Source of the DNA: Thermus brockianus
GTDB lineage: Bacteria; Deinococcota; Deinococci; Deinococcales; Thermaceae
DNA: 64,000 nt
Assembly: GCF_001880325.1 (NCBI RefSeq)
Contig: NZ_CP016313.1
Location: 62,001-126,000 of the forward strand
Direction: 5' to 3'
Made by a program: the position numbers and the translations under genes
Shown here: piece after piece, positions 2,819 to 62,016 of the stretch
Layout of the letters: each line of letters begins with the position of its first letter
Position numbering within the stretch: the first letter of the stretch is position 1
The notes under the pieces: model-generated
Told to the model about the DNA's origin: nothing
The model's input: the letters and a program-made list of their open reading frames with translations, nothing else
Databases searched by the model: none

Positions 2819-3775
2819 GTGCCGGCGGTTGGATTTTCCAGATGGTTAGGGCATGGCGTCAGGGTTTGGGCCATCCTCCTGGTGGCCCTCTCACCCTTGG
2901 CGACGCTCGCAGGGTGCGTCTTAAAAAACGACGCCCAAACCCCTGACGGTTCCCACGGTGCCCCACCGCCCCCTGGGGTCCGCACCTGGGTCTACCAGCT
3001 CACCGGCTACCCTTCCATGAGGCTTGACGCTTTGGGTGCCACGGCTGCAGGGCTTTTTGTCATAGACCTGACCAAGGATGGCCGACAGCCTTGGACCAGC
3101 GCCGATCTCGCACCCTTTCAGGGGAGGCCTGCCCTGGCCTACATGGAAATTGGGGGGATGGAAAACTACCGGGTGGAGTATACCGTGGTGCAGAAGAACG
3201 CTTCCGATCTCCTCCTAAACCCTGTGCCCGGCTGGAGCGGGGAGTGGTACGTAAAGTACTGGGATGAGCGGTGGTGGAACCTAGTGGTTCAGCCCCGCTT
3301 GGACAAGGCCTTGGCGGCTGGGTTCAAGGGGGTTTATCTGGACTTGGTGGACGCCTACGAGGGCATTAGCTTAAGTTTGGTACCTGGGGAAACGCGGGAT
3401 ACCTTGGCAGCCAAAATGGTGGCGCTTTTGGGGAGGATCAGCGCTTACGTGAAGGCCAAGCGGCCGGATTTTTGGGTCTTCCCCCAGAATGCCCCAGAAC
3501 TCCGGGTGCGGCTGGGGTACCTGTCGGCGATAGACGGCATTGGCCTCGAGGAGCTCTTCGTTTACGCCACGGACCGGCCCTGCACGGACTCGGGTTGCCA
3601 GGAACGCCTAAACCACGCCCGGGCCATTCGCGCCGCGGGCAAACTGGTGCTCACCGTGGACTACGCCACCAAAGTGGAAAACGTTCAGGCGGCGTGCCAA
3701 AAGTCCCGGGCGGAAGGGTTCGTGCCCTACGTGACCGTGGTGGATCTGGACCGGATCAGCCCCCTATGTCCGTAG
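2819..3775 (+). CDS. GH114/TM1410-like lipoprotein glycosidase (putative endo-polygalactosaminidase)
   Basis: 318 residues starting at a GTG with gagga upstream. Residues 17-32 are hydrophobic and end in the lipobox LAGC, so this is probably a surface lipoprotein. The body is a TIM-barrel of the TM1410/GH114 type: blocks RPALAYMEIGGMENYRV, AAGFKGVYLDLVDAYEGI (the conserved G-x-Y-L-D-x-x-D) and FVPYVTVVDLDRI. GH114 enzymes cut alpha-1,4-linked galactosamine polymers, and PelA carries a structurally related hydrolase domain. It converges with, and overlaps by 20 bp, the related gene 3756-4460. The location beside a PelF-like glycosyltransferase and a deacetylase supports a role in trimming an exported aminosugar polymer; this is inference. 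Confidence 0.82.
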   Translation: MPAVGFSRWLGHGVRVWAILLVALSPLATLAGCVLKNDAQTPDGSHGAPPPPGVRTWVYQLTGYPSMRLDALGATAAGLFVIDLTKDGRQPWTSADLAPFQGRPALAYMEIGGMENYRVEYTVVQKNASDLLLNPVPGWSGEWYVKYWDERWWNLVVQPRLDKALAAGFKGVYLDLVDAYEGISLSLVPGETRDTLAAKMVALLGRISAYVKAKRPDFWVFPQNAPELRVRLGYLSAIDGIGLEELFVYATDRPCTDSGCQERLNHARAIRAAGKLVLTVDYATKVENVQAACQKSRAEGFVPYVTVVDLDRISPLCP

Positions 3776-4460
3776 GGAGGAGTAGGTGTTTCTCCTGGGC
3801 CAGGATGGGCACCAGGCCATGGTGTAGGGCCCTCCTGGAGGCGAAGCGGGCCAGCTTTGCTTGGGGGGCATAGTCCAGGCTATAGCGTTGCCAAGGGAAC
3901 CGGGCTAGGAGTCCTGCCCATGCGGCGTTGGCGCGCAGGAGGGAGCGGGGGAGGGGCCTGCCGCCCCCTTCCCACGTGGTGGAGAAGCCCTCAAAGACGA
4001 TCCCGTCCACCAGCTCCGCCAAGTGGGGTAAGAGGGCGAAGCCGCGGTTGGCCAGGAGGTAATGGGGCCCTATGGCCCACCGGAGTTCCAGGATGAGGCG
4101 GAGAGCGGCCCCGCGGTTCGTGGCGGCGGCCTGGTCCAGGGTGTCCAGGAAGAGGCCCTTAAAGCCCTTGGTCAGGTACAAGAGGGCGCATTCCACCACC
4201 CGGGTCACCCAGCCGGGGTGGGCGGGGTCCACAATCCTGGTGCCCCATAGGGGGTTAGTGGCCCCCACGTGCCACGGCCCTTCGGGGTCAGGGTCTTCCC
4301 CCAGGCTTAAGTAGGCGAGGGGTTCCGTGGGCGCTAGGGCCTGGAGCTCCTCGGGGGTATAGGCCCAAGGCTGGAGGACCACCCTGCGGAAGGCCCGAAG
4401 CTCTGGAAGCCTTCCTTGCCCGTAGTAAAAGCCGAGGGGCTTAAAGGAGGTAAAGGCCAT
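3756..4460 (-). CDS. GH114/TM1410-like hydrolase, last gene of the exopolysaccharide operon
   Basis: 234 residues, shorter than the plus-strand relative and with no obvious signal peptide (starts MAFTSFKPLGFYYGQGRLPE). The conserved barrel strands are present: PLAYLSLGEDPD, KGFKGLFLDTLDQAAA and LVPILAQEKHLLLP. The LFLDTLD block corresponds to the catalytic-site strand of the family. Its start overlaps the upstream membrane-protein gene by 20 bp, so it is translationally coupled. Without a signal sequence the product may stay in the cytoplasm or leave by an unrecognised route. Function is inferred from fold and context only. Confidence 0.78.
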   Translation of the reverse strand: MAFTSFKPLGFYYGQGRLPELRAFRRVVLQPWAYTPEELQALAPTEPLAYLSLGEDPDPEGPWHVGATNPLWGTRIVDPAHPGWVTRVVECALLYLTKGFKGLFLDTLDQAAATNRGAALRLILELRWAIGPHYLLANRGFALLPHLAELVDGIVFEGFSTTWEGGGRPLPRSLLRANAAWAGLLARFPWQRYSLDYAPQAKLARFASRRALHHGLVPILAQEKHLLLPTDIGG

Positions 4461-5703
4461 AGCGCTCCGGATGGCGCAGGTGCTCTAGGAGGTAGAGGAG
4501 AAGGCCAAGAGCGACGGCCCCCAGGAGAAGGGGGTTGGGGGCTAGGTGCAGGAGAAGCGCCCCGGTAAGAAAGGCTAGGGCGCTCCCGTGGATAGCCCCC
4601 AAGGCGTTCAGCGCCAGGGCCATGGCGCTTAAGAAGCTAAGAAAGCCGAAGCCCAGAAGGGGCACGTGGTACTCCCCGGACCAAGGAAGGCCGAGGAGGA
4701 TGAGGAAGGTGGGCACCGAGGCGGTGAAGGTGTAGGACCAAAGGGAGCGCTGAAGGGCGAGGAGAAGGGCTACGGGGTTTTCCGTTTGCCAGAGGGTTTT
4801 GGCCAGGGTGGCGACGAAGGCCGAAAGCCGCATCTCCACCAAAAGGGACGCCAAAAGGTAAAGCCCAAGCCCCACGAGGGCCCTTTCACCCGCCAAGTCC
4901 ACCAACTTCCACAGGACGAAGCCCTGGCCCAGGCCATAGGCCCCATACACCCACTCCTCCGCCAAGATCTTGCCGAAAAAGGGGAAGCCCTCCCTTCGGA
5001 GGGGGTGCCCTTCCCGAAGGAGGAGAAGGAGGGGAAGAAGGCCCGCCCAGAAGGGGTCTATTCCCGCGATGCGGAGCAGGACGGCCAGGAGGAGGAAACC
5101 CGAGGCCACCCAAGCGGCTTTGGCCTCGAGGCCCCTTAGGGTTAGGACCCCTACGGCCACCCAGGCGAGGCCCGCTCCCCAGGTGGCTGCAAACCCCAGG
5201 TCCAGGAAGGCGGTGACGCTTACCCCAAGGACCCCTACCCAAGCCATTAGGTTCAGCACCTCCTCGGCCTCAGGGGTTTCCAGCTCCACCGCCGCCCTGA
5301 AGCTGGTCCGGGCCACGAGCTGGCTCCAGGTGAGGAGAAAAAGCGCCGATAGCCACCCTACAGATCCTGTGCTCCAGAAAACCACCAAGGTGCCGCCGAG
5401 GGTCAGGGCCACCGCTAGGTGGCGCGGGCCCAGGGTGCCTCGGGGTTTAGGCGGCTTGGCCTTGGGCCGGAAGTCGCGTTGGGCCAGGGCAAAGAGGGCT
5501 TGGGCCAGGGCAAAGGTGTTGGGGAGGCCGAAGAGGCGCTCCACCCGGTAGCGGTTGTACCCGAGGACCTCGAGGTGGGCGGCGAGCTCGTAGGGGTCGC
5601 TCACTTGGCTTAGGAGGCCCCTTAAGGCATGCGCCAACTCGCTTAGGCCTTGGAGGTTTTGCGGCGGGGGAACGGGCGGGCGGTACTCGCCGCGGGCGCT
5701 CAT
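4441..5703 (-). CDS. Polytopic membrane protein downstream of pelF-like gene (candidate PelG analogue)
   Basis: 420 residues. About 105 N-terminal residues look cytoplasmic and helical, then roughly ten hydrophobic segments follow (for example LAVALTLGGTLVVFWSTGSV, LLLGAVALGLLLYLLEHL). The ATG at 5703 overlaps the glycosyltransferase stop (ATGA), so expression is coupled. In characterised Pel loci pelF is followed by pelG, a 12-helix transporter of about 456 residues; position and size are similar here, but I do not see a convincing PelG signature. It may be the polymer exporter. A longer reading of the same frame extends into the pelF-like gene and is not the real start. Confidence 0.7.
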   Translation of the reverse strand: MSARGEYRPPVPPPQNLQGLSELAHALRGLLSQVSDPYELAAHLEVLGYNRYRVERLFGLPNTFALAQALFALAQRDFRPKAKPPKPRGTLGPRHLAVALTLGGTLVVFWSTGSVGWLSALFLLTWSQLVARTSFRAAVELETPEAEEVLNLMAWVGVLGVSVTAFLDLGFAATWGAGLAWVAVGVLTLRGLEAKAAWVASGFLLLAVLLRIAGIDPFWAGLLPLLLLLREGHPLRREGFPFFGKILAEEWVYGAYGLGQGFVLWKLVDLAGERALVGLGLYLLASLLVEMRLSAFVATLAKTLWQTENPVALLLALQRSLWSYTFTASVPTFLILLGLPWSGEYHVPLLGFGFLSFLSAMALALNALGAIHGSALAFLTGALLLHLAPNPLLLGAVALGLLLYLLEHLRHPERYGLYLL

Positions 5704-7121
5704 TCGGGCACCTCCAGGGAGCCTTCCAGGGCCAGGGCCTCGTAGATGCGGGAGAACTCCTCCAGCATCCGCCTTAGGGTGTAGAGGCTCAGGACCTTTT
5801 CCCGCGCTTCCCTGCCCTTCGCCAGGCACCGGTCGGGGTCCTTGAGGAAGCCCAGAAGGGCCTCTCCCAAGGCCTCGGGTTCCATGGCGGGCACCACCTC
5901 GCCCACGCCCTCCAGCACCTCGCCCACGCTCCCCACCCGGGTGCCCACCAGGGTACGCCCCACGGCCATGTTTTCAATCACCGTATAGGGGAAGCCCTCG
6001 GAGATACTGGAAAGCACCCCTACCCACCCGCGGTGGTAGGCCTGGTACACGGGGCTTGCGGGGCCCATGAAGCGCACGTTGTCCTCCAGGCCTAGCTCCT
6101 TTACCCGGGCGCGGACGCCTTCCGCATAGGCCTCGTTGCCCCGGGGCACGGGGCCGAAAAGGAGGAGCTGCGCCTGGGGAAGGGCTTGGCGTACCCAATG
6201 AAAGGCGTTCACCAAGGTCAAGAGGTCCTTTAGCGGGTCAATCCGTCCCACCCACACGGCGGTGGGAGGGTCTTCCAGGTGGGCCGGGGCCTCGGGGAAC
6301 TGTTCCGGGTCAATGCCGTTGGCCACCACCTGGATGCGCTTGGGGTCGGCGCCGAGCTCCACCTCCCACTGCCGGTTGAAACGGCTTACCGTGGTGATGA
6401 ACTGGGTCTCCCGGTAGGCCAGGCGGCTAATGAGATGGTAAAACCGGGCCTGGACCAGGCGTTCGGCGGGGGACGGGTTGGTTTCGCTAAAGGCCAGGTA
6501 GCGCTCCCTAAGGAAAACGCCGTGTTCGGTGAGGAGGAAAGGTACTCCCAGGTGCCTTGAAACAAGCCAGGCGGGGATGACGGCGAGCCCGCCGCTCGTG
6601 GCGTGCACCAGGTCCACCTCGGGGATGGGGTCTAGGGCCAAGAGGGGAAGGAGGGTGGAGCGGAGCCAGTGCAGGACCGAGAGGGTTTCCCCCAGGGTAG
6701 GGGAGCGGCCCAATAACAGATGTAGCCGCTCCTGCAAGAGGGCTTGTGTTCTAGGGTGGAAGAAAAGATGAAAAAGATTGCGCTTGCGAAGTAGGAAAAG
6801 CTCCCACAGGCCTCCCTGAAACGTTTCCAGGTCTAGGTCCAAGAAGGCGAGAAGCTTCTCCAAAGCGGGGAGGAAGGTGTGGAGGGGGGCGGTGGCGAAA
6901 GGGAAGGCGGGGACGGGCCGAAAGAGGTGGAGGGTCCGCAGGGTGCTCCCCTGGGGTAGGGGAAGTGTGGGTTTGGCGCGCCGGGGTCCCCAGAGCGCCA
7001 GCACCGTGAACTGGGCCTTTAGGCCAAAGAGAAGTTGTTCGCACCACCGGCTAACCCCTCCCACGGAATAGGGGTAGGTGCCTTCGGTAACGAAAAGAAC
7101 CCTAAGGTGACTGGAGCGCAT
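5700..7121 (-). CDS. pelF: PelF-type GT4 glycosyltransferase
   Basis: 473 residues, close to the usual length of PelF (about 500). The N-terminus VLFVTEGTYPYSVGGVSRW is the characteristic PelF glycine-rich start. Further features are LLTEHGVFLRERYL, the acceptor-side block, and SEGFPYTVIENMAVG, which contains the GT4 E-x7-E donor-binding motif. PelF polymerises UDP-activated N-acetylhexosamine on the cytoplasmic face of the membrane in Pel biosynthesis. The gene overlaps the deacetylase-like gene upstream by 20 bp and the membrane-protein gene downstream by 4 bp. No PelD, PelE, PelB or PelC homologue is visible in the window, so this is a Pel-like system rather than a canonical pel operon. 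Confidence 0.85.
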   Translation of the reverse strand: MRSSHLRVLFVTEGTYPYSVGGVSRWCEQLLFGLKAQFTVLALWGPRRAKPTLPLPQGSTLRTLHLFRPVPAFPFATAPLHTFLPALEKLLAFLDLDLETFQGGLWELFLLRKRNLFHLFFHPRTQALLQERLHLLLGRSPTLGETLSVLHWLRSTLLPLLALDPIPEVDLVHATSGGLAVIPAWLVSRHLGVPFLLTEHGVFLRERYLAFSETNPSPAERLVQARFYHLISRLAYRETQFITTVSRFNRQWEVELGADPKRIQVVANGIDPEQFPEAPAHLEDPPTAVWVGRIDPLKDLLTLVNAFHWVRQALPQAQLLLFGPVPRGNEAYAEGVRARVKELGLEDNVRFMGPASPVYQAYHRGWVGVLSSISEGFPYTVIENMAVGRTLVGTRVGSVGEVLEGVGEVVPAMEPEALGEALLGFLKDPDRCLAKGREAREKVLSLYTLRRMLEEFSRIYEALALEGSLEVPE

Positions 7122-9192
7122 ACGTTCCCGTTCCTACAAAACAACGGTTACGGCCGGCATATGTGTCGCACGAGCTGCCTTGGATGCCCGTTACCCAGAC
7201 GGGTTTACCCGTCAGCGTGAGGGTTTGGGCGGTGGGGTCAATGACCGCCCGCACGCTTCCCGTGCGCACCGCCTCAAAGTGCCGGTAGCGCTTGAGGGCG
7301 CGCTCGCCGTATTCCAGCCAGGATGGGGAGAGGAGGGGAAGGGCGCTGTAGGTGGCGTACTTTTGCACAAGCGTTTCCAGCCAGTCAAAGACCAAGTTCT
7401 TGTCCGGGGCGTACGCGCGCAGGTTCGCCTGGTGGAAGTAGTGGCTTCCCCCATCGGTGAAGACGTGGTACAGGGCCAGGTTGGTTTCTTGGCCCAAGTA
7501 CTCCCCATAGGTGAGGGAACGCGTCCAATAGGGTGCGGTGCCGCCTGGGGCGTAGATGCTGTTGTAGGCGTTTAAGGCCTCCTGGTCCGTGCTCACGTTG
7601 TAGAAGACGTTGGTGGGCCAGTCCGCTACCAGGTATAGGCTAGGGGCCAGAGGGTGGGGAAAGGCGCAGGTGCGGCAGGGGGGCTTTTGGCTATTCACGG
7701 ACCAATTCACCTTGGCGAAGCGGACCTTGTGTTCGGTGAGGGCTTGGAGAAAATGCAGGTTAGATGCGCCGAGGCCGTTGTCGGTACGGGGGAAATCGTA
7801 AGGGTTTGCGCCCTTCCAGCCAAAACCCGAGTACTGCCCGCTTTTGAAGACGGTGTGCTCGTAGCGGAGGCCTAAGAGGCTCGCTATCCGGTTGTTCTCG
7901 GCGATTTCCCTGCGGGCCTGGGCCGGGTCGGTAAAGTCCATGTCCCAGTGGGTGTAGGAGTGGTTGTAGAAGCGGAAGGTGTCCTTCAGGACTTGGGTAG
8001 CCTGCAGGAGGCCGTCCGCCTGGTTAAGCGGTTCGCCCGCAGACGTGCCGGAGGGGTCGCAGGGGTTTAAGGAGTCGTTGGGGTTGGGGTCAGAGACCGC
8101 CCCGCATCCATTAAGGGCGATGTCTAGGGTGAAGGCCTGGGCCACGGGGTAGGAGCGGAGGGCGGCTTGCTTGTCCGCCACGGCGTACGCCTCGAGGGCG
8201 CTTAGCCGGAATTCGGCGGCGTTGCCCACCCCCGGCCCGTCGCCGGGGATTTCGGTGGAAAGGAACCAGTCGTCCACGTCCACCCGCAGGTACCGGCTGT
8301 ACTCTCCCACGTACACTCCGCGGGTAAGCCAGTGAATGAGCCCGGGAGCGAGAAGCCAGGTATGGACGAGGTAAGGGCTTTGGTCAAAGGTGAGGAGGAG
8401 CTGCTCCCGCCCGTCAGGGGTGGTGCGCACGATGGCGAAGACGTAGCCGTCCGCGTCCCTCAGGAGAGGGGTGGCGGCGCAGGCACCGCTTAGCGTTGCC
8501 TTGTAGGCGTAGGCGTGGCGCACGGGAAGGGTTCCCGTGAGGTCGGAGAAGATCGCCTGGCCTTCCGGGGTGAGGGTTAGGGGGTAGCTCAGGGCGAGGT
8601 CTATGCCGTCGGGGTCATTGGCGGGGGGGCTTGGTGTGGAGAAGCCTTCCACCGGGGTGAGGCAGCGGTCCTCGGGATAGGTCCCGGGGTAGGTGTAAAG
8701 GACGAGTTCCCGCACCCCGTAGTCCCGCTCGTAGGCCCAAAGGCGGTTCCAATCCTCCCAGGTCATGGGGTTGGACCCTGAGGCCAGCTGGCCTTCCGCC
8801 AGGATCACCCCTTGGAAGCGCCCCGTGCCATCGGGCTGGGTGAGGGGCACCTGGCCGAAGGGGGTTTCGCTCAGGTTCACCACCTCGTGGGGGATGAGGA
8901 AGGTTTCCAGGATGTCCCGGGCGGCGGCGAAGTGGGGGGCTTGTGCGGGGTCGGTGGAGGTGGTGAGGAGGAGGATGCGCGCCTCGTACCTGGCTCCGGA
9001 AAGGGCCTGGGGCCTTAGGGGGAGCTTCAGGGGCACGGGCCCCTCGAGGGCCGGCAGAGGCCGGCTTGGGAGCACCGGCAGGGCTGGGGGTGCTAGGGGA
9101 GGGCCTTTTACCTGGACCCTGGGCCCCGAAGGGGCCTGGCCCGTGAGGTTGCAGGCGGCGAGGAGGAGGGCGAGGAGGGCGAGGCGGCGCAT
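7102..9192 (-). CDS. Polysaccharide deacetylase-like lipoprotein (Agd3/PelA-deacetylase type)
   Basis: 696 residues. MRRLALLALLLAAC is a short lipoprotein signal, so the protein is probably surface anchored. A CE4-like active site is visible: Asp-Asp in YLRVDVDDWF (about 305-308) and the H-x3-H motif in HSYTHWDMDF (about 411-415). The region before it (65-290) is an alpha/beta domain (ARILLLTTSTDP) like the domain that precedes the catalytic part in Agd3-like enzymes. Such proteins remove acetyl groups from exported N-acetylgalactosamine polymers. It has a strong ribosome site (ggggaggt) and overlaps the pelF-like gene by 20 bp. Assignment rests on motif spacing and neighbours; the exact CAZy family needs a profile search. 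Confidence 0.75.
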   Translation of the reverse strand: MRRLALLALLLAACNLTGQAPSGPRVQVKGPPLAPPALPVLPSRPLPALEGPVPLKLPLRPQALSGARYEARILLLTTSTDPAQAPHFAAARDILETFLIPHEVVNLSETPFGQVPLTQPDGTGRFQGVILAEGQLASGSNPMTWEDWNRLWAYERDYGVRELVLYTYPGTYPEDRCLTPVEGFSTPSPPANDPDGIDLALSYPLTLTPEGQAIFSDLTGTLPVRHAYAYKATLSGACAATPLLRDADGYVFAIVRTTPDGREQLLLTFDQSPYLVHTWLLAPGLIHWLTRGVYVGEYSRYLRVDVDDWFLSTEIPGDGPGVGNAAEFRLSALEAYAVADKQAALRSYPVAQAFTLDIALNGCGAVSDPNPNDSLNPCDPSGTSAGEPLNQADGLLQATQVLKDTFRFYNHSYTHWDMDFTDPAQARREIAENNRIASLLGLRYEHTVFKSGQYSGFGWKGANPYDFPRTDNGLGASNLHFLQALTEHKVRFAKVNWSVNSQKPPCRTCAFPHPLAPSLYLVADWPTNVFYNVSTDQEALNAYNSIYAPGGTAPYWTRSLTYGEYLGQETNLALYHVFTDGGSHYFHQANLRAYAPDKNLVFDWLETLVQKYATYSALPLLSPSWLEYGERALKRYRHFEAVRTGSVRAVIDPTAQTLTLTGKPVWVTGIQGSSCDTYAGRNRCFVGTGTYALQSP

Positions 9193-9196
9193 GCCG

Positions 9197-11149
9197 TTAC
9201 CTCCCCTTTCTCGGCAGGCTCAAGGGGCTTAGCCCCAGGCCCTGCGGTTGGGCGCTACCCACCCCGCTTCCCGGTACCACTCCGGACCCGTCCACGGTGA
9301 GGACGTGCCACCAGGTGTCGTACCCCTGGGCGCTTGGGGGGGCGGGGAAGGCCTGTACGGGGTAGCCGGCGTTTAGGACCTCCACCTGGGCCCCCGAGGC
9401 CTGCCAGCTCCCCCCGCCAAAGTACCAGTGGACGTAAACCCGGTAGCTTCCCCCTTGGTACCGGAAGCGCAAGGTTTCCTGCCCTGGCCCCTGGGTTACG
9501 TCCCCTTCCAGGCAGGCTTCCCCTGTTGGGGGGCAGATGCCGGGGTTAGACCAGGAGATGTGCTGGGTTGCCGGGGTGCCCGGATAGAAAAGGTGGAGGT
9601 CTAGGTCGGCCCCCGTGTTCCAGGAGAGGACCACCCGCCAGTCAGCCGCATAGGTGACGGTCAGGGTGAAGTCCCAAGACCGGGTGGCCCCACCCCCTTG
9701 GGGCGTCGCCTTGAGGCGCAAGAGGTAGGGGCCGGGCGGGGGGTTGGTCACGCGCAGGGTCACGGGCCCCCCCGATGCGGGCAGGGAGCTGGTATCCAAG
9801 GCGATGCGAGAAGGGGGGGGCGCCCCGTCTTGCCCTTCTAGGGCCAGGACCAGGGGCGTGTTGAAGCCGTTTTGCGCCGCCACCGTTACCTGGAGGCTTC
9901 CCCCGCCTCCCCAGGGCAGGGTGAGGGCCGTATCCCCCCCGAGGGAGAAGTCGGTGATCCTAAGGGTGAAGTTCACCTCCCGTACCCGGTTTCCCCCCTC
10001 TGCCCGGAGGGTCAGGGGGTAGTCCTGGGGGCTGAGGCCTGGGTCCAGGGCCAGGGTGAGGGGAACCGTGACGGGGTTCCCGTTCAGGGCCACCGTGGAG
10101 GGGCTTAGGGTAATCCCTGGTGGAGGGTTTACCAGGCTCAGGTTCACGGACCCGTTGAAGCCCAGGAGGGGGGTGAGGGTGAGGGAGGCCTGGGCCTGGC
10201 CGCCCACGGGGGCGGAAGGGTTACCTTCCAAGGACAGGAGGAAGTCGGGGGCTAAGCTGTTCACGGCCACCGCCCGGCTTCCAGCGGTCCCGGCAACGAA
10301 GCGGATGGCTCCCTGGTCCACGCTTTGGTTGGCCGTCACCTTATAGACCTTTCCCGCGTAGCCTGAAGGCGTTTCATCCTGGACCGTGAGGCCGCTGGGC
10401 GCTTGGAGGGTGACCGCAGGCAAGGGTTCGTTGCCCGAGTTGCCCACGAGGACGTGGGCGCTTTCCCCGGGGTTTAGGCTTAGGACGAGGGGCGCCACCT
10501 CGAGGCCCGGCCCCAGGTTGGGGTTCACCACCTTGCGCAGAAGCCGCACCAGGTCCTGTTCGTCGGCGTAGCCGCTGGAGTCCAGGTCGGCGTGGTAGCG
10601 GCGGTAGGGGTTGGGAGTGGCAGCCCCCGTGAGGAGGTCGGCCAATAAGACGGCATCCGCCAGGCCCACACTGCCGCTGGCGTTGAGATCGCCCAAGGGT
10701 TTTTGAGCGAAAGCGGGGTCCACCTCCGCCTGGCCCACCCCCGGAAGGGAAGTGTAGCTCTGGGGCCCTAGCCGGCCTTGCGGGCTGGGGCCTTCCTCCT
10801 CCCAGGAGAGGCTTGCCCGGGTGGCCTCCTGTTCTAGGAGGCGCGCCTCGGGCTGTGCCCCCGGCTTTAGGACCTGGAAGCGGACCCGGAGCACCTCGCC
10901 GGAGAGGTCCCGGTAGGAAACCCCCACCAGGCGTATGCGGCCGGCCTCGAGGTGGGCCTCGGTGAGGAGGGGGCTTGCGGAGCCTAGGTAGCGGAGGGCG
11001 CTGGGGTCAAAGGTGACCTCAAGGAAAACCCCGCGGACCGCCTCGCCCCGAAGGACCAAGGCCTGGGAAAGGGGAGAGGGATAGGCCCCCTGGGGGCCGC
11101 TACAGGAGGCAAGTAGGAGAAGGATAAGCCAGATAAGGCGCTTTGCCAT
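9197..11149 (-). CDS. Surface lipoprotein with cohesin-like, dockerin, Ig-like and DUF2135-like domains
   Basis: 650 residues from the ATG at 11149, chosen because aaaggtgg lies just upstream; an earlier Met would overlap the previous gene. Layout: lipobox LLASC (Cys16); a cohesin-like beta domain about 25-110 (LEVTFDPSALRYLG); a type I dockerin 151-210 with two calcium loops, GDLNASGSVGLAD and ADLDSSGYADEQD; repeated Ig-like modules 210-500; and a C-terminal DUF2135/YfaP-like domain about 500-620 (GADLDLHLFYPG...WSNPG). It is a paralogue of 11930-14128. Function is unknown; the modules suggest a calcium-dependent surface scaffold or polymer-binding protein co-expressed with the polysaccharide enzymes. 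Confidence 0.8.
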   Translation of the reverse strand: MAKRLIWLILLLLASCSGPQGAYPSPLSQALVLRGEAVRGVFLEVTFDPSALRYLGSASPLLTEAHLEAGRIRLVGVSYRDLSGEVLRVRFQVLKPGAQPEARLLEQEATRASLSWEEEGPSPQGRLGPQSYTSLPGVGQAEVDPAFAQKPLGDLNASGSVGLADAVLLADLLTGAATPNPYRRYHADLDSSGYADEQDLVRLLRKVVNPNLGPGLEVAPLVLSLNPGESAHVLVGNSGNEPLPAVTLQAPSGLTVQDETPSGYAGKVYKVTANQSVDQGAIRFVAGTAGSRAVAVNSLAPDFLLSLEGNPSAPVGGQAQASLTLTPLLGFNGSVNLSLVNPPPGITLSPSTVALNGNPVTVPLTLALDPGLSPQDYPLTLRAEGGNRVREVNFTLRITDFSLGGDTALTLPWGGGGSLQVTVAAQNGFNTPLVLALEGQDGAPPPSRIALDTSSLPASGGPVTLRVTNPPPGPYLLRLKATPQGGGATRSWDFTLTVTYAADWRVVLSWNTGADLDLHLFYPGTPATQHISWSNPGICPPTGEACLEGDVTQGPGQETLRFRYQGGSYRVYVHWYFGGGSWQASGAQVEVLNAGYPVQAFPAPPSAQGYDTWWHVLTVDGSGVVPGSGVGSAQPQGLGLSPLSLPRKGR

Positions 11150-11160
11150 GTTCCCACCTT

Positions 11161-11919
11161 TCATGGGGCAAGCCATAGGTTGCCTCCGTGCACGGGTTCC
11201 TCCTGATAGGAGCCCTCCCGCACAACGAGGGCATGGGTCAGGGAAAGCATCCCCTCACCTGCGCCCATGAGGGCTATGGTCCCCACCTGGCCAGGTCCCT
11301 GAAAGGCCCTGCGGGCCTCGCAGACAAGGAGGGCGTTCCAAACGTTGGGCGTTTGGGAAAGGGGATGGAGTTCGGGGAGGCATTCCTGGGTGAGGGGGCC
11401 CGGGCTAAAGCTTAGGGTGAAGCCCAAGGGGGCCTCTATGCGGAACTGCATCCCTTGGTAGGCCCTGAGGGTTTGGCCGAGATAAACCCCCACGAAGTAG
11501 GTACTTCCCGTCCGTTCCAGGAGTTTTGGAATGAGGGTGAGGACCACCGTGGCGGACAGGTCCCTTTCCCGAACGATGGAGCCGCTTTGGGCGCGAAGCT
11601 TGAGCGCATAGGTGCCCGGGGCAAGGTACTCTAGGGCGGACACCTCGAGGGTCTGGCTCACAGGCTCGCCGGAGAGCCATACGGAAAGCGGGGCCACGGT
11701 GAAGCCAGGCGCAGGGTCTCCGTGCGCGTTGACCATGAAAAGGTTAACCCTGCCCCTAAAGCCCCCTTCCGGCGCCAGGACGATCTGGGTGGTCTGGCTC
11801 CCTCCTTGAGGGAGGGTGAAAGCAGCGGGATCGGGCCCGGATAGCGTGAAGGTGGCGCCGGGCGCCCCGGGGAACTGGGCACACGCGGTGAGCGTAAGGA
11901 GGACGAGGGGACTACGCAT
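11161..11919 (-). CDS. Short lipoprotein with one Ig-like repeat and a cohesin-like C-terminus
   Basis: 252 residues. The short signal MRSPLVLLTLTAC ends in a lipobox. Residues about 25-125 form one Ig-like module (FTLSGPDPAAFTLPQGG, YLAPGTYALKLRAQSG). Residues about 135-252 resemble the C-terminal domain of the 732-residue neighbour (GSTYFVGVYLGQTLRAYQGM against the GNTYTVGVNLVGTTEAYRGA block there). It appears to be a shortened paralogue made of the last repeat and the terminal domain. Ten bases separate it from the upstream gene's stop, and aggggga precedes the ATG. Function unknown; part of the same operon. Confidence 0.75.
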   Translation of the reverse strand: MRSPLVLLTLTACAQFPGAPGATFTLSGPDPAAFTLPQGGSQTTQIVLAPEGGFRGRVNLFMVNAHGDPAPGFTVAPLSVWLSGEPVSQTLEVSALEYLAPGTYALKLRAQSGSIVRERDLSATVVLTLIPKLLERTGSTYFVGVYLGQTLRAYQGMQFRIEAPLGFTLSFSPGPLTQECLPELHPLSQTPNVWNALLVCEARRAFQGPGQVGTIALMGAGEGMLSLTHALVVREGSYQEEPVHGGNLWLAP

Positions 11920-11929
11920 CCCAGTCCCC

Positions 11930-14128
11930 CTAGGGCGCCAACGTGAGGCTTCCTCCGCTCGCCGAGGGGTCCTCCGTGTAATCCGGCCTCACGAGCACCA
12001 CGTCGCCCACGGTCAAGTTACCCCCTGCCGTGCCCGCTACGGTGAGGAGGGCAAGTTGGCCGGGACCGCTGAAGGAGGTGTTGCATACCAGGACCACATT
12101 CCACCGGTTGGGGTTGGTAGAAACTGGGGAAAAGTCCAGTAGGCAGCCTTGGGTGAGGGTACCCGTGCTTGCGTTCAGGGTAAAGCCCGCAGGCAGGGTC
12201 ACGCTGAACTGGGCGCCGCGGTAGGCTTCGGTGGTGCCCACGAGGTTCACGCCCACGGTGTAGGTGTTGCCCGTGCGGCTTAGGAGGGTCGGTTGCAGGG
12301 CTTTGTCCGCTGCGGTGACCCTGAGGGTGAAGGTGTGGCTTCGGCTCAGGTCACCGCCGCTGGCCTGGAGGGTTAGGGTGTAGTCGCCTTGGGCCACGTT
12401 GGGGCCCACGTTCAACGTGAGCGCCACGCTGTTCCCGGTAGTGGGGTTTTCCGCGAAGCTATAGGACACCTTGTCGTTTCCGCTTCCGAGGACGCTTCCG
12501 TTTAGGCTCAGGGTGATGGGCCCGGCGAAGTGGGTGCGGTTGAGGGTGACGTTTAGGGTGCCCGAGGCACCTTGTGCCAGGGTGAGGTCTCCTGCGTTCA
12601 CGGAGAAGTCGTAGAGGGTGACGGTAAGGGGCTGTGTGCGGGTGAGGCTACCCCCGCTTGCCCGCACCAGGAGGTTGTAGACCCCCGCTTGGGCGCCGGA
12701 AGCGTTTACGCTCAGGGTCACCGGGTTGCTGGCGGGCAAGGTGACACTGTTGGGGGTTAGGGTGAGGGGCGCAGGGTTGCCGTCGGCATCGGTGAGGGCA
12801 AGGCTCACGTTCCCACCGAAGCCGCCATAGGGGAAGAAGAAGGCTTGGAGGTTTCCTGATCCGCCCACAGGCTGGGTAAGGGCGCTTTGGCCCAGGTGGA
12901 ACTCAAACCCGGGCGCCTCTTGCACCACTAGGGCAAAGGCCTTTTCCTGGGAGAGGGTTCCGCTTTCCGCCCTCAGGCGGAGGGTGTAGGTGCTAGGCGC
13001 TACCGAGCCGCTTACAGCGAGGGTGAGGTTTCCGAAGAAGGGGCCGTTGAGCGTTACGGTGCTCTGGCTTTGCAGGCTCACCCCAGGAGGAGCGTCTAGG
13101 AGGCTTAGCGTTACGTTCCCCGTGAAGCCGTTTTCCGGGGTAAGGGTAAAGCCCAGGTTGGCTGTCCCCCCCGGGATGGTGGTGGTGCTCGGGGCGCTAA
13201 GCTCTAGGCGGAAGTTCGGGTAAGGGGCGTGCACCCGGGCGGTGCGGGTGCCGGCGCTACCCGCTTGGCACTGGATGCTCCCTTCCAGGGTGTTTCCCTG
13301 GGCTTCCACCTTATAGGCCTTGCCCGAAGCTCCTTGGGGCGTCTCGTCCGAAAGCGTAATCCCTTGGGGATGGGTGCAGGACACGTTGGGAAGCGTTCCG
13401 TTCCCAGAGTTGTTGAGGAGGAGGTAGGTGTGGGCACCGGGGCTTAGGGAGATGTCCTGGGGTGCAAGCTCCAGGTTGGGCTCCAAGGTGGGGTTGACAA
13501 TCTTCCTCAAGAGAAGGGCAAGGTCCTGGCTAGTCAACGTGCCGCTGGAGTTGAGGTCCCCGTGGTAGCGCTGGTAGGGGGTGGGGTTTGCCACGTTGCC
13601 GGCGAGGATGTCTGTGAGGAGGACACCGTCCGCTAGGCTCACGGCGCCGCTTCCGTTTAGGTCACCCAGGGGGTTCTGCACAAATCTAGGGTCGGCGTCG
13701 TTTTGGCCGATTCCTGAAACAGCGGACTGGGGTGAGACCAGAGCCTGCGGCTGGAGGCTGCCTGCCTTCCAGGTCTGCCTTACGCTTCCCTCCGCAGGGA
13801 AGGTTTCCACCACCTGTACCGCGGGCCTCGCCCCCGGCCGGAGCACCTCAAAGGTAAGCGCGAGAAGGGGGCCCGAGGGCGCTTGGGGGGCCACGGCAAC
13901 CGCGCGGACCCTTCCGCCTTGGGCGAAGGCCTCCACCCCGTAGGCCCCTTCCACCCCTACGTAGCGCAAAGCGGCGGGGTCAAAGGTGACCTCCACCAAA
14001 AGGCCCCGCACGCCTTCCCCTTGCAGGGCAAGGCTCCAGGTTTCTGGCCTATGGCTTCCCGGCTGGCTGCACGCGCCCAGAAGCGCGCCGAACAAAACGA
14101 AACCTACAACACGCCAATGTCCCTTCAT
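11930..14128 (-). CDS. Large dockerin/Ig-like surface lipoprotein, first gene of the exopolysaccharide operon
   Basis: 732 residues from the ATG at 14128, which has gggaggt upstream and gives a clean lipoprotein signal (VLFGALLGAC, Cys20); a longer reading from 14203 lacks both. Domains: cohesin-like 30-110 (LVEVTFDPAALRYVG), dockerin 153-212 (GDLNGSGAVSLAD, GDLNSSGTLTSQD), four or five Ig-like repeats of about 90 residues recognisable by recurring YTLRLRAESG / YNLLVRASGG / YTLTLQASGG strands, and a cohesin-like C-terminus 610-732. A dockerin and cohesin-like domains on one chain could allow self-association. The 237 bp upstream (14129-14365) hold no gene and probably the operon promoter, but I cannot point to convincing boxes. 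Confidence 0.8.
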   Translation of the reverse strand: MKGHWRVVGFVLFGALLGACSQPGSHRPETWSLALQGEGVRGLLVEVTFDPAALRYVGVEGAYGVEAFAQGGRVRAVAVAPQAPSGPLLALTFEVLRPGARPAVQVVETFPAEGSVRQTWKAGSLQPQALVSPQSAVSGIGQNDADPRFVQNPLGDLNGSGAVSLADGVLLTDILAGNVANPTPYQRYHGDLNSSGTLTSQDLALLLRKIVNPTLEPNLELAPQDISLSPGAHTYLLLNNSGNGTLPNVSCTHPQGITLSDETPQGASGKAYKVEAQGNTLEGSIQCQAGSAGTRTARVHAPYPNFRLELSAPSTTTIPGGTANLGFTLTPENGFTGNVTLSLLDAPPGVSLQSQSTVTLNGPFFGNLTLAVSGSVAPSTYTLRLRAESGTLSQEKAFALVVQEAPGFEFHLGQSALTQPVGGSGNLQAFFFPYGGFGGNVSLALTDADGNPAPLTLTPNSVTLPASNPVTLSVNASGAQAGVYNLLVRASGGSLTRTQPLTVTLYDFSVNAGDLTLAQGASGTLNVTLNRTHFAGPITLSLNGSVLGSGNDKVSYSFAENPTTGNSVALTLNVGPNVAQGDYTLTLQASGGDLSRSHTFTLRVTAADKALQPTLLSRTGNTYTVGVNLVGTTEAYRGAQFSVTLPAGFTLNASTGTLTQGCLLDFSPVSTNPNRWNVVLVCNTSFSGPGQLALLTVAGTAGGNLTVGDVVLVRPDYTEDPSASGGSLTLAP

Positions 14129-14365: not shown

Positions 14366-15761
14366 CTAAGGCGTTTGGGGCGCCTCCGTGAGTTGCCCAC
14401 GGGCCACATAGGGCACAAAGCCCAGTTCTAGGGCCCTTCGTAAGGCGGAGTCAAAGGCCTCGGCGTGCGGCGTCTGGTCCAGGCTGAGGGCGGGAAGCCC
14501 CCGCTGCCGAAAAGGCCACACGGGGCTGGGATCGTTTAGGGCGATCTGGCCCCTAGCGTCCACGGAGAGCCCCGAATAGACCACGGCGTCCAGGAAGCGG
14601 GCGGTGCGCCGCAATACCCGGAAGCCCCGGTGTTGCAGGAGGAGGGCTTGCGGGTAGCCTTCGCGAAGGCTACGGATCAGGGCGGCGAGTTCCGGGATTA
14701 TTTCTGGGTATAGGTCTGCAAGGTCTAGGCCGTCCAGGAAGAATCCCTCAAAGCCGAGGGCTAAAAGCCGGGCGGCCTCTGCCCGGACCTGGGCCTGCCA
14801 GAGAGCGGAGGCGGGGTCCATAAGGAGGGTATCCGGCGCGTAGGGGTTGGGTCCTAAGGCAGCTTTAAGGAGGCCTTTTTGTTCCGCCTCCCCTCGAGGC
14901 ACCACCCCCACGGGCAGGTAGGCCACCACCCGTACCCCCCTTTCCCTAAGTCCCCTTACCAAGGCCAAGGGGGCTTCCCGGGCGAGGACCACGAGCTCGT
15001 AGGCCTGGAGCGAGGCGAGGGCGCCTGGGTCTCCTCCGTAGTAAAGCGCCCAGCGCCGGATCCCTTGAAGGCGGCTCGGAATAGGGGGGAGCATCCCCTC
15101 CCGGACCCGGACCTGGGCCGCCAGGGCCTCGGGGTCGTTGGGGGCCTCCAAAAAGGCCAGGTAGCCGTAATTGCCAGGGGAGTGGAAGCTACCCCCCAGG
15201 GGCCAAAGGGTGTACTCCCCGGCTGCCGGGTGGCCGCGGCCCACCTTGAGTTGCCAAAGGTCGCCCCGTTGGGGGGGGAGGAAGGGCCTCGCCAAAGGGG
15301 ATGCGGAGTTCCGCCCACCATCCCCCGGGGAAGGTTCCGGTCCTGGCCTCAAAGGCGAGGGGGGTCGTGTACCGCTCAAAGCGGACCCCTTTGGGGTTCA
15401 CCGCCAGGTGCAGGTCGGGGGCCTCCTCGTCAAAGGCGTGGGGACGCAGAAAAACCTCCAGGGTATCGTCCTGCCACCACTCCGGGTCGTCGGCTTGGCG
15501 CTCCGCCTTGGGAGGCGTTTCCTGGCGAAGCCGGGCTGCCAGATAAAGGGCCTGGTCATCGTAGGCCACTTGGAAGGTGCCGGGGAAGCGGGCGGTTTCG
15601 GGGGGATACACCGTGGTGAGCTGGAGGGTATAGGTGGGAAGTCCTGGGTAGAAGCCTGCGCCCCAGGGGCCTGGGGGTCGGGGAAGGGCCTGCGCCACCA
15701 CCACCTCTTGGGCCAGGCCTATTCCCCCCAAGGCCAGTAGGGTTACGAGAATTCTGCGCAT
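14366..15761 (-). pseudogene. CBM9-like plus GH114-like secreted protein, split by a frameshift
   Basis: Two overlapping minus-strand frames together make one sensible protein. The first starts at ATG 15761 with signal MRRILVTLLALGGIGLAQ, followed by a CBM9/DOMON-like carbohydrate-binding module (VAYDDQALYLAARLRQE, WWQDDTLEVFLRPHA, WWAELRIPFGEAL). At the run of eight C (15271-15278 on the plus strand as G) the module continues in the other frame (RGDLWQLKVGRGH, TLWPLGGSFHSPGNYGYLAF). A GH114/TM1410-like barrel then follows (GFEGFFLDGLDLADLYPE, GFVPYVARGQL). Removing one base gives a 464-residue product. It could be a true mutation, a sequencing error, or a slippage-controlled gene. A leaderless promoter precedes it. 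Confidence 0.75.
15271..15278. repeat. Homopolymer run of eight G (C on coding strand) at the frameshift
   Basis: Eight consecutive G on the plus strand lie exactly where the CBM9-like reading frame passes into the other frame. Seven or ten would restore one continuous protein. Such runs are mutable by slipped-strand mispairing and can also cause RNA polymerase slippage. Confidence 0.8.
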
Positions 15762-19010: not shown

Positions 19011-20108
19011 TCACACGGGCCCTAAGGTGGCGTCCTCGCCGCCAAAGCGGCCCCGCTTCCTGGCCTCGAGGTCCAGCCCCACCGCCTCCAGAAGCCGCTT
19101 CGCCTCCATGAGGTCGCGGGTCCAGGCCTCCACGTACCCCCGAAGCGTCTTTTGGTTCAGGGGTCGGAGGAGGCTCGGCTCAAAGCGGTTTCTCCCGCGG
19201 ATGAGAAACCAGGCCTCGCTTCCCCCGAAGGCCGCCCAGAAGGGCTTGCCGAGGCGCCGCCGGAACATCACCAAGGCTTCCTGCACCCTCGGGGTAAGGA
19301 GCTTCCTGGCCTCAACCTGGTCGCCGTACACGTCAAAGAGGCGCTCAAAGGCGCCGGACTCCAGGATGACCCGCCTCTTCTTGGGCGCTTGCCGGTAAAG
19401 GGCGTAAAGGGAGGGAAGGGTAAGGAGGAAGGCGAGGGCGAGAAACGCATACAGGGTGTGGGCCTGGAGGTCCCCGGCGCGCGTTAATCCCGTCAGGCCC
19501 ACGGTCAGGAAGACCAAGGGGATCAGGAGAAGGTTGCCTGGGGTCAGGGCTTTGGGTGTTAGGCCTGCGCCTTGGGGGGCGATGCGCACCTCCTGGGGGA
19601 AGGTGAAGGGGAGCTTTAGCCGGTACAGGGCACCCGAGAAAAAGCGGCGATACCGGGTGCCGCTTTTGGTCCGCACCTTCTCGTACAGGGCGAGATCCGA
19701 CGCGCGAAAGGCGAAGGGCGGGATTTCCCCCTCCAGAAGGTCTTCGCTTTCGTACCGGTCCGCCGGGGGAAGGAGGCCGGAGGCCTCGGCTTCCTTCCAA
19801 GGAAGGCCCCATTGAGGCGTGTAGGCAAAGCCCAGGGACTTGGCCAAGGGGCGGGTCAGCTTCCCTTTGAGCTTGGTGCGCAGGTAGGACAGGAGGGCGA
19901 AGGCGGCGGCAGGGGGAAGGGCGATCAAGGCCACCCAAAGCTGGCCCAGGCTGTCCAGATGGAGGACCTGGAAGAGGAAGGCCAGGAAATAGGCCCAAAG
20001 GGGGGTAGCCAGGAGAAGGGCGAGGGCGTACCGGAGGGTTCGGCGGCGTTCCCGCTCCAAGGGGGCGAGCCTGGCCTCGAGGGCCCGGGCTGCGCTTTCC
20101 AGGGCCAC
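19011..20108 (-). CDS. DUF3137-type membrane protein, paralogue 1
   Basis: 365 residues starting at GTG 20108. An N-terminal charged coiled segment (ARALEARLAPLERERRR) is followed by two membrane helices (about 27-75), a cytosolic part (YESEDLLEGEIPPFAFRASD, KVRTKSGTRYRRFFSG), two more helices (about 190-235), and a C-terminal domain with LESGAFERLFDVYGDQVEAR. It is co-linear with the protein encoded at 21484-22578. DUF3137 proteins commonly neighbour lemA, as here. Molecular function is not established. Its upstream region now abuts an insertion sequence. Confidence 0.82.
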   Translation of the reverse strand: MALESAARALEARLAPLERERRRTLRYALALLLATPLWAYFLAFLFQVLHLDSLGQLWVALIALPPAAAFALLSYLRTKLKGKLTRPLAKSLGFAYTPQWGLPWKEAEASGLLPPADRYESEDLLEGEIPPFAFRASDLALYEKVRTKSGTRYRRFFSGALYRLKLPFTFPQEVRIAPQGAGLTPKALTPGNLLLIPLVFLTVGLTGLTRAGDLQAHTLYAFLALAFLLTLPSLYALYRQAPKKRRVILESGAFERLFDVYGDQVEARKLLTPRVQEALVMFRRRLGKPFWAAFGGSEAWFLIRGRNRFEPSLLRPLNQKTLRGYVEAWTRDLMEAKRLLEAVGLDLEARKRGRFGGEDATLGPV

Positions 20109-20192
20109 GGCTCCATTTTAGAGAAAAAAGGGGGCGTGGGGGAGCTATAACCCCCCAGACTTTCCGTCCGTGGGATACATGGCCTCCCCCAC

Positions 20193-20209
20193 GTCCGCCA
20201 TAGGCGGAC
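20193..20209. repeat. Perfect 7-bp hairpin at the left end of the TnpB element
   Basis: gtccgcc-ata-ggcggac forms a perfect stem with a three-base loop, 20 bp before the tnpB start. Subterminal hairpins are typical of IS200/IS605-group ends. A second inverted repeat (atagtg at 20215-20220 with cactat downstream at 20232-20237) overlaps the ORF start. Confidence 0.6.
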
Positions 20210-20228
20210 AGAGCATAGTGGGCGGCAG

Positions 20229-21447
20229 ATGCACTATCATGGCAGACAGGTGACGCGTAAAGCCTTCAAATACCGCCTCTATCCCACCAAGCCCCAACAA
20301 AAAGACCTAGAGCGCACCCTGGAACTCTGCCGCCAGCTCTACAACGCCGCTCTCCAAGAGCGGAGAGAAGCCTACAAGAAGGCGAGGAAGAGTCTTTCCC
20401 TTCGCGAGCAGGAACGATGGCTCCCCCAAGTCCGCGCGGACCTTCCCGAGTACAAAAAGGTCCACTCCCAAGTCTTGCAGGATGTCATCAAGAGAGTAGA
20501 CCGGGCTTTTCAAGGCTTCTTCCGCCGCCTGAAGGCGAGGAAGGGCAAGGCGGGCTTCCCCCGGTTCAAGGGAAGGGGACGCTACGACTCCTTCACCTTC
20601 CCCCAAGCCTACGCCACCGGGGTCAAACTCCAGGAGGGGGGGAAGCGGGTGCTCATCCACGGCGTTGGTTCGGTGAAGGTGAAGCTTCACCGACCCCTGG
20701 AGGGGCAACTCAAGACCGCCACAATCAAGAGAGAAGGGAACGAGTGGTACTTGATACTTGTCTGCGAGGTGGAGCCAAAGCCCCTTCCCCTTTCCCGCGA
20801 GGCGGTAGGTCCGGAAGGTCCGTGAGGAAGCGGCCTCCCGTCCCCTTCCCCTTTCCCGCGAGGCGGTAGGCATTGACTTGGGGACGAATCCCCACTTCCT
20901 GGTCACCTCGGAGGGGGAGATGGTTCAGGCCCCCCGCTACCTTCACAAGGCTCAGCACAAACTCGCCATCGCCCAGCGCGACCTTGCCCGTAAGAAGCGG
21001 GGTAGCAACCGGTACGAGAAGGCCAGAAGGCAAATAGCCAAGCTCCACCGCAAAATCGCCAATCAACGCAGAGACTTTCACCATAAGATCGCGAGGAGGC
21101 TTGTCAACCGCTATGGGGCCATTGTCCACGAAGACCTGAACATCCTAGGTCTGGGCCGTAGCCACGTGGCTAAGGGCGTACATGACGCTGGTTGGGCTCA
21201 GTTTTTGCGAATCCTCGCCTACAAAGCGGAGGAGGCTGGTAGGCGAGTGATAACGGTAGATCCTAAGTACACGAGCCAGGATTGTCCGGTGTGTGGCCAC
21301 AGGGAGAGGCGACCCTTGTGGGTCAGGGAGTTCACCTGTCCCGCTTGTGGGGCTTCCCTGCACCGGGATGTGGCCGCCGCACGGAACATCCTGGCGAAGG
21401 CCTGGACGGGGCCTTCGGGCACGGGTCCGGCGTGGGCCGTCCCGTGA
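20229..21447 (+). pseudogene. tnpB: tnpB (RNA-guided nuclease of IS605 group), disrupted
   Basis: The first frame (20229-20825) has the TnpB N-terminus (RKAFKYRLYPTKPQQKDLER, GKAGFPRFKGRGRYDSF). The second (20878-21447 and just upstream) has the RuvC-like nuclease: first Asp in GIDLGTNPHF, Glu in VHEDLN, last Asp in LHRDVAAARNIL, and a zinc ribbon CPVCG...CPACG. The two halves join perfectly (SREAVGIDLGTNP) once a 61-bp insertion at 20810-20870 is removed. As it stands the frame breaks before the catalytic domain, so the nuclease should be inactive unless the insertion is removed or a downstream start is used. Confidence 0.85.
20781..20870 (+). repeat. 29-bp direct repeat with a 32-bp intervening segment inside tnpB
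   Basis: Positions 20781-20809 and 20842-20870 are identical (starts ccccttcccctttcccgcga, ends ggcggtagg). The 32 bases between them have no second copy that I can find. The net gain is 61 bp, which shifts the tnpB frame. Confidence 0.9.
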
Positions 21448-21458
21448 GAACCGAGAAG

Positions 21459-21478
21459 CCCTGCTCTTCGGAGCGGGG
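21459..21478 (+). ncRNA. Right-end hairpin, probable 3' part of the TnpB guide RNA (reRNA/omegaRNA)
   Basis: ccctgctc-ttcg-gagcgggg folds into an 8-bp stem (one G-U pair) with a UUCG tetraloop, 12 bp after the tnpB stop. In TnpB elements the guide-RNA scaffold overlaps the 3' end of the gene and right end, and the guide is the flanking DNA. Here the flank (after about 21486) is the 3' end of the DUF3137 gene. Confidence 0.55.
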
Positions 21479-21483
21479 AGTCG

Positions 21484-29472: not shown

Positions 29473-29485
29473 CAATGGAGGGATG

Positions 29486-30559: not shown

Positions 30560-30567
30560 GTGAACAC

Positions 30568-61986: not shown

Positions 61987-62016
61987 TCTTGGATTCCTCT
62001 ACTCTTAGGTCCCCTT
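61987..62016 (-). repeat. Sequence resembling the degenerate CRISPR repeat, opposite orientation
   Basis: The plus strand carries cttggattcctc (61988-61999), the exact reverse complement of the gaggaatccaag core found in the array at 63244-63564. The preceding bases match only weakly. Could be a stray relic or chance. Confidence 0.3.

Follow-up and report, generated by a model that had tools for sequence, protein, structure and literature searches.

Which polymer, if any, is made by an operon that joins a PelF-family glycosyltransferase to a relative of a fungal exopolysaccharide deacetylase and has no recognizable PelG? Such an operon occupies 3756-14128, on the minus strand, of a 64,000-nucleotide stretch of Thermus brockianus DNA (positions 62,001 to 126,000 of contig NZ_CP016313.1, assembly GCF_001880325.1; hereafter the window). 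Its seven co-directional genes, each of which overlaps the next or begins no more than about 12 bp from it, are transcribed in the order Doc2, Sm and Doc1 (three lipoproteins), Agd3-like deacetylase, PelF, multi-span membrane protein and PelA-hydrolase homolog (GHb). An earlier note on this DNA had described seven coupled genes of a Pel-like aminosugar-polymer system; all seven are real and co-directional, but the unit is larger, and should also count two hydrolase genes, GHa, which is convergent with the operon, and GHc. The functional reading we judge right on the basis of the PelF, CE18 and PelA-hydrolase families: the operon most likely makes an exopolysaccharide of the Pel or galactosaminogalactan (GAG) type, probably a partly de-N-acetylated polymer rich in N-acetylgalactosamine (GalNAc) and cationic in character.

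Enzymes of synthesis and modification

The glycosyltransferase (5700-7121, minus strand) is a GT4 enzyme that scores best with PelF, as had been proposed: its best NCBIfam match is NF038011 (158.6 bits; cut-off 100), it matches Pfam DUF3492 at 126.6 bits, and it carries an EGFPYTVIE (E-x7-E) motif at 375. An ordinary GT4 enzyme in place of PelF is ruled out, since NF038011 is over its cut-off and the next-best NCBIfam family, whose own cut-off is 409 bits, reaches 99. In a FastTree phylogeny, Thermus PelF groups with PelG-linked PelF (support 0.99), apart from the PelF proteins of Meiothermus and actinomycetes; this tree has long branches and its split finds no clear mirror in the Agd3 tree, and therefore no origin is claimed.

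The 696-residue product of 7102-9192 (minus strand), previously called a deacetylase-like lipoprotein, is an Agd3 homolog of family CE18 with a lipobox (LAAC): it matches Pfam Agd3_CE at 30.0 bits (cut-off 27.6) and the structure of Agd3 (PDB 6nwz) with an E-value of 4e-12 as a single sequence and 1.5e-31 as a family profile. A CBM87-like domain scores 26.9 bits, just under the cut-off of 27.6, over a region that aligns with the N-terminal domain of Agd3. Alignment to 6nwz equates D307, D308, H411, H415 and H587 with Agd3 D377, D378, H510, H514 and H668 in motifs CM1, CM2 and CM4 (the Agd3 catalytic base, metal triad and acid residues are named in PMC7229062), and all five are invariant in 11 sequences. 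Elsewhere in the same order of the Deinococcota, one genome (G072) has about 8 contigs with separate Agd3_CE matches in very long frames (688-1185 residues), an apparent expansion of CE18 proteins.

The last gene of the operon, GHb (3756-4460, minus strand), does encode a hydrolase, although not primarily the GH114-like enzyme of the earlier note: its family profile matches the PelA hydrolase (GH166; PDB 5tcb) with an E-value of 2.9e-29, compared with 1.4e-06 for GH114/TM1410 structures, so that GH114 as the sole reading is rejected. Its catalytic pair D106/E157, with the residue offset counted from the printed alignment, aligns with PelA D160/E218, the pair as named in PMC12022489, and is invariant in the family. 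The statement that none of the known Pel partners is seen here thus fails for this protein. GHb is predicted to be cytosolic because a hydrophobic N-terminus is missing from all 13 orthologs.

Taken together, these assignments suggest a pathway in which PelF would polymerize a UDP-N-acetylhexosamine, probably UDP-GalNAc, in the cytosol; the membrane protein would carry the chain over the inner membrane instead of PelG; the lipid-anchored CE18 enzyme, whose active site is conserved, would deacetylate it outside that membrane; and GHb may clear stalled or misrouted chains or limit their length. The donor could be supplied through a galE-like gene at another site in the genome, which scores 212 bits and so falls short of the curated cut-off.

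Conservation of the core and the place of PelG

Among 50 Thermaceae genomes, exactly the same 18 carry genes for Agd3-like proteins and for PelF; 8 of them belong to Thermus, which has 27 genomes in the set, and 10 to Meiothermus. The two genes are adjacent in all 18 except at contig ends; the Fisher p of 6e-14 is nominal and only indicative, because related genomes are not independent and their kinship inflates it. The order of the seven genes proposed earlier is kept in seven other Thermus genomes, and a four-gene core of Agd3, PelF, membrane protein and hydrolase recurs in Meiothermus and, among the named genomes scanned, in many Actinomycetota, including Micromonosporaceae and Nonomuraea. 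Of the three results that the earlier note had named as refuting it, namely a better score with ordinary GT4 families, the lack of a deacetylase fold and an order conserved in no relative, none came about. In most of the Actinomycetota, and likewise in Meiothermus granaticius, the core is accompanied by genes for a nucleotidyltransferase, epimerases and a nucleoside diphosphate (NDP)-sugar dehydrogenase. The flanks of the operon vary among Thermus genomes, consistent with an accessory, mobile cluster. Scans for promoters, terminators and repeats gave nothing informative.

This distribution bears on the reading that the operon scavenges or degrades the galactosamine (GalN) polymers of other organisms, its lipoproteins acting as binding or scaffold proteins. 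Such a role would suit three features of the encoded proteins: there are three GH114/GH166-group hydrolases, one domain resembles CBM9, and degradative systems typically have dockerin and cohesin modules like those seen here. A dipeptide-type ABC transporter that adjoins the operon in the window and in some relatives fits it as well. PelF, however, is a synthase-type glycosyltransferase co-conserved one-to-one with Agd3, the core hydrolase is predicted to be cytosolic, and the transporter genes are not kept with the operon in its other Thermus contexts, so that we regard scavenging as very improbable.

That CE18 enzymes accompany Pel synthesis is indicated by two Actinomycetota genomes (L166 and L167) in which contiguous genes encode PelF, a canonical PelG and an Agd3-like protein of family CE18, with scores in L166 of 490 bits for PelF, 471 bits for PelG and 86 and 45 bits for Agd3-like CE18/CBM87; the CE18 proteins are at 30% identity. 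Unlike the Thermus-type operons, those of L166 and L167 have no GHb-like gene in the stretch fetched. CE18 therefore belongs with the Pel machinery, and PelG is the part that has been swapped.

The multi-span membrane protein (4441-5703, minus strand; its ATG at 5703 overlaps the PelF stop) occupies the position where PelG is expected and would, we infer, do the same job. It matches no Pfam or NCBIfam family, and a Pfam scan of 18 members gave no family either. Its most conserved stretch is a soluble, cytosolic N-terminal domain (approximately residues 15-80), with a mean majority frequency of 0.74 as against 0.49-0.55 in the membrane part; this domain may dock PelF, replacing PelD/PelE. With an AlphaFold2 (AF2) model as query, the top 20 Foldseek matches are all MATE or Wzx proteins (including WzxE), with MurJ lower down, which is suggestive of membership in the MOP superfamily. 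In Thermus sp. 2.9 (L067 of genome G046, at approximately 7445-8725) the gene for the membrane protein is divided between two frames, with its neighbours intact. A PelD profile (PF16963) matched nothing in the operon or in 24 genomes, and this result is unusable as evidence because the control genomes gave no match either.

Several observations count against a Pel-type assignment and have to be set beside the evidence for it. The earlier note's view that the operon has no recognizable PelG holds: the PelG profile PF16933 matches 0 of 111 Deinococcota and 0 of 30 agd3-bearing actinomycetes, in a search that works on the Thermotoga maritima control and exceeds the cut-off in 7 of 396 actinomycetes, and profile-profile comparison (hhalign) of the membrane protein with a shallow PelG profile gives a probability of 0.1%. 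Membership of the membrane protein in the PelG family is rejected on these Pfam and profile-profile comparisons. The MOP-like matches come at an E-value of 0.015 (probability 1.0) and a TM-score of approximately 0.4, from a model with a pLDDT of 73. No gene of the operon matches PelB, PelC or any other known outer-membrane exporter in Pfam or NCBIfam, no genome-wide profile search having been made, and Thermus is a diderm. We know of no precedent for a cytosolic PelA-type hydrolase. The deacetylase has aspartate (D524) where Agd3 has the arginine of motif CM3 (R613). According to the cited sources, PelA of Pseudomonas aeruginosa also lacks this arginine (PMC12022489) and CM3 is conserved in most but not all bacterial Agd3 homologs (PMC7229062); since CM3 is not universal among them, its loss alone does not exclude membership in the CE18/Agd3 family.

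Relatives, moreover, have genes for an NDP-sugar dehydrogenase, and their polymers could therefore contain uronic acids. Together with the epimerases encoded in the operons of Actinomycetota and M. granaticius, and with the divergence of Thermus PelF (159 bits, compared with 490 bits for the PelF of a PelG operon), these genes are what speaks for a different product, that is, another aminosugar or mixed polymer (of N-acetylglucosamine, or of GalNAc and uronate) made by a PelF-like family with chemistry other than that of Pel or GAG. The Agd3 and PelA hydrolase families, by contrast, have both been characterized on alpha-1,4-linked GalNAc/GalN polymers, and a GalN-type chain is favoured because two independent substrate-specific families agree; we therefore hold a different polymer to be improbable, although less so than scavenging, and retain the Pel/GAG-type product.

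Lipoproteins and extracytoplasmic hydrolases

The three modular lipoproteins upstream of the deacetylase gene, two of them with type I dockerins, were correctly recognized in the earlier note. Doc2 (11930-14128, minus strand; lipobox LGAC) consists of a cohesin-like module (residues 29-122), a type I dockerin (154-210) and immunoglobulin (Ig)-like repeats; Doc1 (9197-11149, minus strand; LASC) likewise combines a cohesin-like module, a type I dockerin and Ig-like modules; and Sm (11161-11919, minus strand; LTAC), a small lipoprotein that is missing or shortened in some relatives and recognized by its lipobox and orthologs, resembles the C-terminal part of Doc2. The dockerins have duplicated repeats of calcium-binding type. 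Pfam Dockerin_1 matches Doc2 at its cut-off (22.9 bits; cut-off 22.9) and Doc1 below it (E-value 0.013), the corresponding scores in a genome scan being 27.1 and 21.2 bits; relatives are over the cut-off, and the family profile matches solved dockerins in the PDB with an E-value of 7e-06. For the cohesin module, Pfam and a search of the PDB with the family profile gave no sequence match, and assignment is by fold: cohesins make up the majority of the 50 best PDB matches of an AF2 model of Doc2 residues 1-224 (best E-value 3e-04), with TM-scores of 0.2-0.35 over the 224-residue query. The Doc1 counterpart is assigned by alignment. The predicted fold thus agrees with the cohesins claimed earlier.

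The alternative that these lipoproteins are unrelated passengers on an accessory island, such as adhesins or envelope-structure proteins, must be weighed against their distribution. Doc1/Doc2 homologs are absent next to the core in the actinomycete operons, a Thermaceae genome scan found no Dockerin_1 in Meiothermus, the operon is patchy (8/27 Thermus) and sits in differing chromosomal contexts, and Doc2 lies upstream of the enzyme genes with an upstream gap of its own. On the other hand, Doc2, Doc1 and Agd3 are tightly spaced, all three are lipoproteins, and within the Thermaceae Dockerin_1 is confined to the Thermus genomes that carry the operon, all eight of which have it, with the 14 matches listed all at the operon. 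A general presence of dockerins in Thermus is thereby ruled out, and a link of the cohesin-dockerin proteins to the operon is likely because dockerins occur only there in the family; the passenger reading is possible but doubtful. The pairing of cohesin and dockerin within each of these lipoproteins suggests that they assemble on the envelope as chains or heterotypically. By cohesin-dockerin contacts, Doc1 and Doc2 would assemble there and serve in surface attachment, and may retain polymer or enzymes at the surface.

Both additional hydrolases are predicted to be extracytoplasmic, and would cut or release the mature polymer. GHa (2819-3775, plus strand), a putative lipoprotein (lipobox LAGC) of the GH114 (MJ1477/TM1410) family, matches Pfam GH114 at 102.7 bits and TIGR01370 at 176 bits, slightly below the cut-off, and lies beside the operon in every Thermus locus whose contig extends that far. 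GHc (about 14366-15761, minus strand), a secreted protein with a CBM9-like domain (CBM9_1, 27.6 bits; cut-off 23.4) and similarity to PelA hydrolase (PDB 5tsy, E-value 1.1e-09), is a single open reading frame of approximately 461 amino acids in relatives (for example, L060:2743-4131), whereas tblastn finds it in two frames in the window. The frameshift that splits it lies close to a tract of eight C at approximately 15270, and sequencing error, a pseudogene and a slippage tract are candidate explanations.

Farther along the window, two separate DUF3137 proteins are encoded close together at 19011-22578 (minus strand), and at 29483-31977 (plus strand) a gene of the GH10 xylanase family precedes one of the GH5 cellulase family and genes for sugar ABC transport, together forming what their sequences identify as a Thermus cluster for the use of plant polysaccharides.

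Comparison with known systems

The earlier suggestion that the system is possibly undescribed holds only for features of this variant. Homologs of Agd3 had been reported from 45 bacterial species, Deinococcus-Thermus among their groups, by Bamford et al. (2020; PMC7229062), who found most of the agd3 genes near or in operons that also encode a glycosyltransferase of the cytosol, a multi-spanning membrane protein and GH114 proteins, and who suggested that these operons make Pel/GAG-like polymers; the enzyme core is therefore already predicted in the cited passages of that paper, where GHb was probably counted as GH114. Both descriptions share CE18, a cytosolic glycosyltransferase, a membrane protein with multiple spans and at least one gene of GH114 type, whereas cohesin/dockerin lipoproteins, a GH166 core hydrolase without a signal peptide and a replacement of PelG are not described in those passages. 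Added here are a PelF assignment backed by cut-offs, a core hydrolase that is of PelA type and apparently cytosolic, a record that PelG is missing, the bridge operons in which PelF, PelG and CE18 stand together, and the cohesin-dockerin proteins tied to the operon; Figure 8c or the supplements of that paper may contain some of this. Literature searches on Thermus PelF, Thermus cohesins and dockerins, and Meiothermus exopolysaccharide gave nothing specific.

The evidence from operons (PelF-PelG-CE18, and CE18-PelF-other transporter-GH166) links the deacetylase family known from fungal GAG with the Pel machinery of bacteria and names a new candidate transporter family at the position of PelG. 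The operon also provides heat-stable forms of Agd3, PelF and PelA-type hydrolase, proteins in demand as tools against GAG and Pel biofilms, and Thermus, whose matrix polymers are little defined, gains a biofilm locus with an unusual cohesin-dockerin link. We put forward only tentatively, as a conjecture with less than an even chance, that this is a distinct form of Pel-type secretion, in which a transporter unrelated to PelG recruits PelF by its N-terminal cytosolic domain, the chain is edited in the cytosol by a hydrolase of PelA type, and Thermus lipoproteins assemble by themselves into a cohesin-dockerin scaffold that keeps the polymer on the outer surface.

With the pelABCDEFG operon of P. 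aeruginosa and the Gram-positive pelDEA(DA)FG operons, which use PelD/E/A/F/G (PMC7112168, PMC7112194), the Thermus operon shares PelF, a PelA-type hydrolase and a dedicated extracytoplasmic deacetylase; it differs in having no PelG and no candidate for PelD/E or PelB/C, in using CE18 rather than a PelA/PelADA-type deacetylase, and in encoding the hydrolase as a separate, predicted cytosolic protein. The L166 and L167 operons also couple PelF to an Agd3-like CE18 protein, but with a canonical PelG, and neither a GHb-type hydrolase nor cohesin/dockerin proteins were found in the stretch fetched. The GAG cluster of Aspergillus fumigatus likewise brings together an Agd3 deacetylase, a GH114 hydrolase and a GT4 enzyme; it is fungal and includes Sph3 (GH135) and Uge3, whereas Thermus has a PelF-family glycosyltransferase and a PelA-type hydrolase. 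Finally, both module folds are held in common with cellulosomes and with the non-cellulosomal cohesins of Clostridium perfringens and Archaeoglobus, but unlike cellulosomes and other cohesin-dockerin systems, the Thermus operon combines the two modules within single lipoproteins and leaves its enzymes with neither.

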